Under the pieces are notes generated by a model. It saw only the letters and a list, made by a program, of their open reading frames with translations, was not told where the DNA came from and did no database searches. Positions 45,020 through 64,000 of a DNA stretch of 64,000 nt are shown here, piece by piece. This stretch comes from Pedobacter segetis (GTDB taxonomy: Bacteria > Bacteroidota > Bacteroidia > Sphingobacteriales > Sphingobacteriaceae). The first letter of the stretch is position 1. Every line of letters starts with the position of its first letter. The stretch covers positions 62,001 through 126,000 of the forward strand of contig NZ_JAEHFY010000002.1 of the NCBI RefSeq assembly GCF_016623585.1. The letters are read 5' to 3'. Position numbers and translations under genes: made by a program.

Positions 45020-45466
45020 ATGAAGAAAATTGTTGATTATAGAAAGTTGTTAGATGTTTCAGAGAACGCTACGCTTGCAGAATTAAAATCGATATATAGA
45101 GGTTTAATGAAAACTTATCATCCAGATAAGTTCCCAGAAGGCGAGGAGAGAACAAATGCGGAAGAAACAAGTACAAAAATGATCGAAGCATATCATTTCT
45201 TGGTAAGCATCGCTCCAGAAACCCGTCAGCAATCCTTGGCGAACTATACAGAAACCATCACCAACTCTAACATCCAAGATTTTGAGTTTAAATCACAAGT
45301 TTTAACCGTAGAGTTTTTAGACGGTAATGTTTACGAATATTTTGATGTACCAAGGGCGGTTTACGTAAAATTAGTAAACGCGGATAGCAGGGGGAGATTT
45401 GCGAGAAGACATATTTTTAGTTCTTACGTTTATAGAAGCACCAGCAAATTGGTTGCAACTGCATAA
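45020..45466 (+). CDS. J-domain protein fused to a KTSC domain
   Basis: 148 residues. Residues about 6-60 form a J domain with the HPD motif in KTYHPDKFPE (His34-Pro-Asp36), which activates DnaK ATPase. Residues about 95-145 match a KTSC domain (VLTVEFLDGNVYEYFDVP, then SRGRFARRHI). KTSC occurs alone or fused to lysyl-tRNA synthetase and nucleic-acid proteins; its function is not established. The protein lacks the G/F and zinc regions of DnaJ, so it is a specialised co-chaperone at most. Single gene, promoter directly upstream. Confidence 0.87.
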   Translation: MKKIVDYRKLLDVSENATLAELKSIYRGLMKTYHPDKFPEGEERTNAEETSTKMIEAYHFLVSIAPETRQQSLANYTETITNSNIQDFEFKSQVLTVEFLDGNVYEYFDVPRAVYVKLVNADSRGRFARRHIFSSYVYRSTSKLVATA

Positions 45467-45474
45467 TTTTTTTT

Positions 45475-45576
45475 GCGTAAGGGATTGAAGTGAAAAGCCC
45501 GGATTATGGTTTGGAAAAACCATAAACGGACTTGTAACGCAAAGCCCGACCCCGATTTTTCTTCGGGGTTACGCCC
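45475..45576 (-). repeat. Structured extragenic element, copy A
   Basis: About 100 bp, G+C-rich against its surroundings. The ends pair: GCGTAA (45475-45480) with TTACGC (45569-45574). Inside are two hairpins, TATGGTTT-GGAA-AAACCATA (45505-45524) and ACCCCGA (45549-45555) with TCGGGGT (45563-45569). Two copies of AAGCCCG flank the first hairpin. Read on the minus strand the order is GGGC, outer stem, hairpin, CGGGCTTTGCGTT, hairpin, CCGGGCTTTTCACTTC, AATCCC, outer stem. It lies between converging genes and has no U-tract. Confidence 0.7.
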
Positions 45577-45602: not shown

Positions 45603-46415
45603 CTATCCAAATGCAGATTCTACTGCGCCGCCATCTACCCTATAATTGCTCCCGTTAACATAACTAGCTAGATCAGAACATAAAAATGTTATAACGTTTG
45701 CTACTTCTGCAGGTGTTCCCCTTCTCTCTACAGCTATGTATGGTCTATCGGTTTTTAAGAAATAATCAACAGCTTCCTTAACCGATGTATTTCTTTTCTT
45801 AGCTAGCTCTTCCATCATCGCATCCGTCATTGGGGTTTCTATAAATGCTGGCGAAACACAATTAAATAGCAAATTATCTTTAGAATAAGCCCTTGATAAG
45901 CATTTTGTTAAATTGATGATTGCCGCTTTGCAAGCATTATAAGGGCTTTCCTCTATATAAGGTTGAAAAGCATTCTCAGAAGCAATGGTTACTACACGCC
46001 CCCATTTTCTTTCTAATAATTGTGGTAAAAAAGCTCTGCATAATCTTACCGCACCCATTAAATCAATGTCTATTGTTTTCATCCAATCGGCATCAGAAAG
46101 CGTCATGAAATCTCCAGCTGCACCTCTTGCACCCGCACAGTTAACTAAAATATCAATCCCTCCATATTCCTTTTTTACTTTTTCGGCAGCTTCATCAACT
46201 TTTACGGGATCGCTCAAATCTAATGGTAAAAGATAAACTTTGGCATCTGAAGAGGTTTTTAAAAGGTCTTTTTTGGCATTTTCCAAATCTTTCTCCTTGA
46301 TGTCAGAAAGTATGATTTTTGCCCCTTCTGTGGCTAATTTTTTTGCGGTTTCTAAACCGATACCAGAATCGGCACCGGTAATTAAAGCTGTTTTGTTTTT
46401 TATTCCAAAATCCAT
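45603..46415 (-). CDS. SDR-family oxidoreductase
   Basis: 270 residues. ALITGADSGIGLETAKKLA holds T-G-x3-G-x-G; ILVNCAGARG is the N-A-G motif; TIASENAFQPYIEESPYNACK holds Ser and Y-x3-K; PAFIETPMTDAMM is the loop after the active site. It binds NAD(P) and oxidises or reduces an alcohol/ketone of unknown identity. Divergent from pdxJ with a 100-bp gap; no operon partner. Confidence 0.9.
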   Translation of the reverse strand: MDFGIKNKTALITGADSGIGLETAKKLATEGAKIILSDIKEKDLENAKKDLLKTSSDAKVYLLPLDLSDPVKVDEAAEKVKKEYGGIDILVNCAGARGAAGDFMTLSDADWMKTIDIDLMGAVRLCRAFLPQLLERKWGRVVTIASENAFQPYIEESPYNACKAAIINLTKCLSRAYSKDNLLFNCVSPAFIETPMTDAMMEELAKKRNTSVKEAVDYFLKTDRPYIAVERRGTPAEVANVITFLCSDLASYVNGSNYRVDGGAVESAFG

Positions 46416-62589: not shown

Positions 62590-63768
62590 TTAACGCATAT
62601 TTTCTATTACAATTGCACTTGCTCCGCCGCCGCCGTTACAAATACCGGCAACACCTAATTTAGCATTATTTTGGGCTAAAACATTTATCAAAGTTACCAT
62701 AATTCTTGCACCAGAAGCCCCTAGTGGATGCCCTAAAGAAACCGCTCCGCCATGTACGTTTACCTTATCGGCACTCAAATTTAAAGCTTTATTATTAGCT
62801 AAAGAAACTACCGAAAATGCTTCGTTTATCTCGTAAAAATCAATTTGCTTAGGTTTTAAACCGGCTTTGTTCAAAGCTAAAGGAATGGCTTTGGATGGCG
62901 CCGTAGTAAACCATTCTGGCGCTTGTTGGGCATCGGCGAAAGCCAAAATCTTGGCCAATGGTTTAATGCCTAATTCGTTTGCTTTTTCTTTGCTCATTAA
63001 AACCAAAGCTGCGGCACCATCGTTCAAACTAGATGCGTTTGCGGCAGTAACGGTTCCGTCTTTTTTAAATACTGGTCGCAAAGCGGCGATCTTATCAAAT
63101 TTTACGTTTGCGGGCTCTTCATCTTGATCGATCATTGTTACGTTTCCTTTACGGTCTTTTAACTCTAATGGAATTATTTCTGTTTTAAATTTACCATCTG
63201 TAATCGCTTTTTGTGCCCGTTTATAAGAATCTATTGCATAGGCATCTTGTTCTTCCCTTGTTATGCGGCAATCTAAGGCGCAAAGTTCTGCCGCAGAACC
63301 CATGTGGTAATCATTGTAAACGTCCCAAAGGCCATCTTTGATTAAACCATCTGTCAATTGGCCATGGCCTAATTTATAACCCGTTCTAGCTTTATCCAAA
63401 TAATATGGCACATTGCTCATGCTTTCCATACCGCCTGCAACGATAATATCCTTATCGCCCAAGGCAATACTTTGGGCAGCCAACATTACGGCTTTCATCC
63501 CGCTTGCGCAAACTTTGTTTATAGTGGTGCTTGGTACATCTGGCAAGCCTGCAAATTTTGCGGCTTGTGTTGCCGGTGCCTGCCCTAAATTGGCCGAGAG
63601 TACGTTCCCCATTAAAACTTCTTGTACAACTCCTGGTTTTATACCCGCTTTTTCTACGGCTGCTTTTATGGCAAAACCTCCTAATTGGGTTGCTGTAAAT
63701 GACGATAAAATCCCTCCGAAACTACCGATGGGTGTTCTTAGGGCTGCAACAATATATACTTCTTTCAT
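62590..63768 (-). CDS. Acetyl-CoA C-acyltransferase (thiolase)
   Basis: 392 residues. The nucleophile cysteine is in TTINKVCASGMKAVM (Cys87), the general base in GGAVSLGHPLGASGAR, and the second cysteine in GICNGGGGAS. EINEAFSVVSLANNKAL is the conserved N-E-A-F. It condenses two acetyl-CoA or cleaves 3-ketoacyl-CoA; in this sequence the degradative and biosynthetic forms are not separable. The frame begins MKEVYIVAALRTPIGSFGG, the standard start. Confidence 0.96.
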   Translation of the reverse strand: MKEVYIVAALRTPIGSFGGILSSFTATQLGGFAIKAAVEKAGIKPGVVQEVLMGNVLSANLGQAPATQAAKFAGLPDVPSTTINKVCASGMKAVMLAAQSIALGDKDIIVAGGMESMSNVPYYLDKARTGYKLGHGQLTDGLIKDGLWDVYNDYHMGSAAELCALDCRITREEQDAYAIDSYKRAQKAITDGKFKTEIIPLELKDRKGNVTMIDQDEEPANVKFDKIAALRPVFKKDGTVTAANASSLNDGAAALVLMSKEKANELGIKPLAKILAFADAQQAPEWFTTAPSKAIPLALNKAGLKPKQIDFYEINEAFSVVSLANNKALNLSADKVNVHGGAVSLGHPLGASGARIMVTLINVLAQNNAKLGVAGICNGGGGASAIVIENMR

Positions 63769-63876: not shown

Positions 63877-63953
63877 GGGCAATAGCCGGGCTATCCGCTC
63901 ATACGCCACAGGCATTAAGCACAGGCCGGTATCCGCTACTATCCCTATTGCTT
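63877..63953 (+). repeat. Structured extragenic element, copy B
   Basis: A G+C-rich island of about 75 bp. GCAATAG (63879-63885) pairs exactly with CTATTGC (63945-63951), extended by two G-U pairs. Inside lie CCGGGCTATCCGCTC, a short GCC-ACA-GGC fold, and GGCCGGTATCCGCTAC, then ATCCC. The order matches copy A at 45475-45576 read on its minus strand, but with a different outer stem. Lies upstream of the thiolase gene. Confidence 0.68.
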
Positions 63954-64000
63954 AGTGCTAGTTCAAATATTGTACAAATAAACAAACCGATTACGTCCAA

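Follow-up and report, generated by a model that had tools for sequence, protein, structure and literature searches.

What kind of element forms the two structured islands that lie between genes in the window analysed here, a 64,000-nucleotide stretch of the Pedobacter segetis genome, and what keeps their fold in place while their bases change? The initial annotation had described the two islands, copies A and B below, as sharing one layout, with closing stems of different sequence (GCGTAA/TTACGC in A, GCAATAG/CTATTGC in B) and with an extra hairpin, CCCCGA/TCGGGG, in A; both were said to lie outside genes and to be without a U-tract. We located each of these features, and both islands proved to be copies of one element, Flavo-1:

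45475-45576, + strand: copy A of Flavo-1, whole (Rfam match 45470-45555)
45481-45547, + strand: copy A core, GGG A TT GAA GT GAA AAG ... CTT GTA AC GCA AA G CCC, with all invariant columns present in the alignment
45475-45480, + strand: copy A outer stem, 5' arm GCGTAA (sequence and fold)
45569-45574, + strand: copy A outer stem, 3' arm TTACGC (sequence and fold)
45550-45568, + strand: additional side hairpin of copy A, placed between its core and its outer stem, CCCCGA at 45550-45555 pairing with TCGGGG at 45563-45568 (sequence and fold)
45020-45466, + strand: DnaJ and KTSC domain protein flanking copy A, which begins at most 10 nt past its stop
45603-46415, - strand: short-chain dehydrogenase, the convergent neighbour of copy A, with its gene end at 45603
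63877-63953, - strand: copy B of Flavo-1, whole (Rfam match 63880-63963)
63888-63945, - strand: copy B core, GGG A TA GTA GC GGA TAC ... GTA TGA GC GGA TA G CCC
63879-63885, - strand: one arm of the outer stem of copy B, reading GCAATAG on the + strand (sequence)
63945-63951, - strand: second arm of the outer stem of copy B, reading CTATTGC on the + strand (sequence)
62590-63768, - strand: thiolase flanking copy B, starting at 63768 and divergent from a 7TM-HD gene

The 7TM-HD gene, copy B's other neighbour, starts beyond the window edge. Both copies are intergenic, and neither has a U-tract at its end when read in its own strand. Side hairpins like that of copy A occur in three other copies of the same genome (L012, L015 and L025), and the core of copy B belongs to a subtype common to L380 and L388. 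A descriptor of the shared core scores 18.5 for A and 19.0 for B, against best chance scores of 16.0 in the window, 16.0 in the reversed window and 15.5 in shuffled sequence. Folded alone, copy A is more stable than its shuffles (z about -3.6 to -4.6); copy B has no extra stability (z -0.6 as RNA), so that the case for B rests on comparison and not on energy.

Flavo-1 is a catalogued, unexplained hairpin motif of Bacteroidota that was described by Weinberg et al. 2010 (PMC2864571) and is filed by Rfam (RF01705) as type 'Gene; sRNA'. Against the Rfam model, copy A scores 38.6 bits (E 4.3e-7) and copy B 24.4 bits (E 0.0028), each below the curated cut-off of 42 bits, and a scan of the whole window at the gathering score returned no match. 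The genome as a whole holds 31 Flavo-1 copies above the cut-off (44 at E<=1e-3), with which A and B align column by column; the repeat family is therefore Flavo-1, of which A and B are divergent members. This overturns the earlier statement that no named RNA or repeat family fits the islands. The further copies expected in this genome are there, and the commonness suggested for related genomes is supported by counts of 1 to 119 copies per genome within the genus. The Rfam strand of Flavo-1 is the complement of the strand used in the initial annotation.

The Flavo-1 core reads, 5' to 3', NNG-A-UW-GNA-RY-GGC-AUC(C)-apical hairpin-GAU-AUA-RY-GGA-WA-G-CNN. In an alignment of 32 copies from the same genome, 97.8% of the cells of its ten pairs form a standard pair; of the 320 cells, 82 differ in both bases and 1 in a single base. 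Covariation scores 0.686, whereas shuffles give 0.216 and sliding the partners gives 0.149 at most, so that covariation supports the structure. Cores in which all ten pairs are Watson-Crick number 146 in 2.2 Mb of DNA, against 0 in the reversed or complemented sequence; in a wider set of 146 copies the R-Y helix takes the forms GC/GC (87), AC/GT (30), GT/AC (23) and AT/AT (5), and the W pair is found in all four Watson-Crick forms. Selection on the shape of Flavo-1 is very clear, and the argument from different bases with retained pairing, made at first on two copies, extends to 32. The internal-loop bases are constant, with G7, A9, G12 and A29 invariant in the alignment, and can be read as sheared, tandem G-A pairs, which would be present on the Rfam strand only; such pairs would favour shape-based recognition of one strand. 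Mismatches in the two-pair R-Y helix are 10 G-T and 0 A-C (the pair tested was not itself used for selecting copies), which again points to the Rfam strand as the one that folds.

Around this fixed core, outer stems and apical hairpins are interchangeable. The outer stems are of at least two kinds, GCGTTA...AACGC and TAGCC...AGCT, and the same apical hairpin modules turn up at unrelated sites, one standing in for another. In five copies (L009, L013, L027, L034 and L037) the apical hairpin includes another widespread repeat, of the form GTCATCCTGAGCGGAGTGGAAGGA, which looks like the nesting of one repeat in the loop of another.

How the copies come to be where they are was approached by comparing sites among relatives. 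Site A is occupied in one relative (G007) by an ordinary terminator without Flavo-1, and site B is empty in four (G007, G014, G016 and G017). In a synteny comparison of five related Flavobacterium-like genomes, a copy at about 2,608,194 in G351 is present in G612, and its site is empty in G038 and in the 94% identical sister G647, a pattern that may reflect loss or interspecies transfer in some cases of presence and absence. G351 also carries a 1.4 kb insertion (G351:C1 about 2,506,892-2,508,280; L145:6892-8280) that is absent in close relatives, for example G647 and G038. At two further sites, S3 and S7, one species has several core pairs, the inner stem and the apical hairpin all changed between flanks that align. 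Flavo-1 is thus a dispersed repeat with variable copy number, lineage-specific sites and cores that are swapped between conserved flanks. Neither a target-site duplication nor an exact insertion boundary was seen at the compared sites.

Where a copy stays in place, its shape is kept while its loops drift. At eight orthologous sites, 350 pair comparisons, which share ancestry and hence are not independent, comprised 290 unchanged pairs, 31 two-sided changes with pairing kept, 14 wobbles and 15 broken pairs; 106 of 525 unpaired positions differed. That pairing is kept over 15-20% divergence suggests that the element is of some use where it stands and does not merely spread selfishly.

The distribution is patchy on a larger scale. 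Flavo-1 matched 56 of 392 genomes in a Bacteroidota sample, and nearly all members of one genus, which by 84-87% identity to named loci appears to be Flavobacterium, saturate the count. Matches to named sequences are from Bacteroidota in every case. On one complete Flavobacterium-like chromosome 107 copies are scattered with no significant split by replication strand (p 0.11), and the neighbours of 214 chromosomal copies are diverse, with no gene family common to them.

Phages carry the element in a far more regular setting. The core patterns match 13 of 2.9 million viral contigs, plus one more (L430), and in 10 of the 13 (9 distinct) Flavo-1 lies 17-50 nt past the stop of a 530-570 amino acid protein, antisense in all. 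These proteins, down to 22% identical among themselves, have a Walker A motif and acidic nuclease-like motifs, and one of them hits the PHROG of the terminase large subunit at 8e-8. The distinct phage copies, each directly 3' of the terminase stop and antisense to the terminase gene, and the prophage copy, antisense behind its terminase gene, are:

L297, 3758-3815: phage copy
L299, 2799-2854: phage copy
L300, 5587-5641: phage copy
L409, 3194-3244: phage copy
L410, 1893-1941: phage copy
L411, 5602-5650: phage copy
L414, 3293-3354: phage copy
L415, 2796-2850: phage copy
L416, 225-292: phage copy
L418, 796-848: prophage copy

The prophage was found by protein search alone, with no selection for Flavo-1, and has the same arrangement as the phages. 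The terminase-linked copies differ from each other in outer stems and cores. In three viral contigs (L298, L412 and L413) Flavo-1 lies away from the terminase gene. Of the viral relatives found by protein search, two hold half of Flavo-1 only and one further relative holds none; four more distant chromosomal relatives have no Flavo-1. Downstream of the terminase gene in L426 and L427, only the mRNA-sense 5' half is recognisable and the other half has diverged, possibly a decaying or altered form. Single-protein searches for terminase relatives in viral contigs returned just 5 and 1 loci, so the share of such phages with Flavo-1 is only roughly known.

The most likely reading, to which we give about an even chance, is that Flavo-1 is a dispersed, non-autonomous hairpin repeat, similar to REP or MITE elements in the way it works, whose folded Rfam strand would be recognised as a single strand by a putative factor acting in trans. 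Copies would spread and convert one another and would persist mostly behind genes, where a hairpin may be tolerated or useful; phages would have acquired it at one constant site after the terminase gene. What recognises the element, how it is mobilised and what use host or phage has for it are inferred here. A role in transcription or packaging would account at least equally well for the antisense bias near stops and for the constant position in phages.

Position beside genes is what keeps a role at the mRNA 3' end alive. Divergent intergenes are depleted for Flavo-1 (14/113 against 116/425 in the background, p 8e-4), and the median distance from the upstream stop is 64 nt. Among 223 chromosomal copies, those with a gene ending within 60 nt have the Rfam strand antisense in 57 cases and sense in 28. 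Tandem intergenes of the larger set have 52 sense and 77 antisense copies, superseding a smaller earlier set (34:47, p 0.18); orientation p-values are optimistic, as orthologous sites in sister species are counted. The transcript of the upstream gene would then carry the complement of the Rfam strand, whose hairpin might act in cis by protecting or processing the 3' end of the mRNA, the way the REP hairpins of E. coli act, and the phage copies, all close behind the terminase stop in that same orientation, agree with this. However, one third of near-stop copies are oppositely oriented, copies exist in divergent regions (B is one), a related genome gets by with a single copy, and G-T tolerance assigns the fold to the Rfam strand and not to that of the mRNA. 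We regard a 3'-end element as somewhat unlikely.

The paired changes themselves might have arisen by templated correction of quasi-palindromes, one arm being copied onto the other, together with gene conversion between copies, and not by selection. The near absence of one-sided changes and the exchange of apical modules between unrelated sites are what such a process would leave. Yet it should erase the internal loops too, and these stay constant and never become paired, so that we consider it unlikely as the source of the covariation.

A further proposal, held tentatively and with clear doubt, gives the phages the leading part: Flavo-1 would be the recognition hairpin of a single-strand-acting system common to Bacteroidota chromosomes and phages, its fixed place and orientation behind the terminase would serve packaging or the 3' ends of late operons, and the hundreds of chromosomal copies would be spread, converted and partly domesticated relatives. 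The phage terminase family was itself considered as a mobiliser and rejected, being present in 5 of 392 Bacteroidota genomes and absent from the Pedobacter segetis genome.

That copy A takes the place of an ordinary terminator in a relative speaks for a transcription terminator or insulator between genes. With a U-tract at neither end and an A-rich consensus downstream, with convergent intergenes not clearly enriched (18/113 against 56/425 in the background) and with constant loop bases that terminators do not need, this is quite unlikely. Very unlikely is a set of independent small RNA genes, the meaning of the Rfam filing: some copies in F. psychrophilum do overlap 5' transcribed regions, but copies there are indistinctly sense or antisense and many lie outside transcripts (PMC9723704), and a genome load of about 100 divergent copies whose outer stems vary does not match the behaviour of an sRNA gene.

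The initial annotation had proposed looking for a REP-associated transposase. RAYT genes do exist, in 18 of 18 genomes of the genus, and one RAYT subclass of Bacteroidetes (2.6) has 'atypical secondary structures' on its flanks (PMC6006769); the link to Flavo-1 did not stand. The 299 kb around 60 RAYT loci contain about 10 Flavo-1 copies, which is background density, the RAYTs whose flanks were read have other palindromes and no Flavo-1, and three RAYT matches occur in the genome that has a single Flavo-1 copy. A REP mobilised by RAYT, a Y1 transposase, is accordingly disfavoured as highly improbable, and RAYTs are probably not the mobiliser of Flavo-1. The RAYT genes of the genus (L064-L097, for example L095 and L097) have their own set of flanking palindromes, several unrelated repeats (GCAGGGTC..., CACTCGTT..., TTCGACATG...). 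No mobilising enzyme was found among the RAYTs, the phage terminase family and the neighbour genes, and in the loci examined for it no apical loop contained a gene that would make the copy autonomous.

Since 2010 Flavo-1 has stood in Rfam as an orphan among the sRNA genes, and neither its description (PMC2864571) nor a transcriptome study (PMC9723704) offers a function. Should it prove to be a mobile hairpin repeat subject to exchange, and not an RNA gene, the annotations of many Bacteroidota genomes would change meaning. What recognises it becomes testable, now that strand, constant bases and covarying pairs are defined, and phages provide its minimal natural context. New here are the dispersed-repeat behaviour, the persistence of shape at orthologous sites, the separation from RAYTs, the antisense bias of about 2:1 and the terminase-linked position in phages.

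Compared with known systems, neither copy has the GC hairpin followed by a U-tract of an intrinsic terminator. MITEs of insertion sequences are, like Flavo-1, small non-autonomous repeats with inverted ends, but for Flavo-1 we found neither a parent element nor a target duplication, nor the terminal inverted repeat of any known IS. REP and REPIN elements with their RAYTs resemble it as short extragenic hairpins in high and variable copy number, often behind genes, but are plain palindromes, whereas Flavo-1 has internal loops of constant bases and no RAYT linkage, the RAYT flanks that were read in the same genomes having other repeats in place of Flavo-1. Integron attC sites share with it a folded single strand, a shape kept while sequence varies and a variable apical part. 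The flanking consensus of Flavo-1 (GCGTTA or TAGCC with GTTAAAACGC or GAAATAGCT), read by eye, lacks the attC boxes RYYYAAC/GTTRRRY at the stem base, and Flavo-1 copies are dispersed singly; the setting of attC sites is a cassette array with an integron integrase. Rfam's Flavo-1 has the same core and the same Bacteroidota distribution as the copies studied here; the difference lies in its filing as an sRNA gene, where we see a dispersed repeat subject to exchange, with outer stems and apical hairpins that can be swapped.
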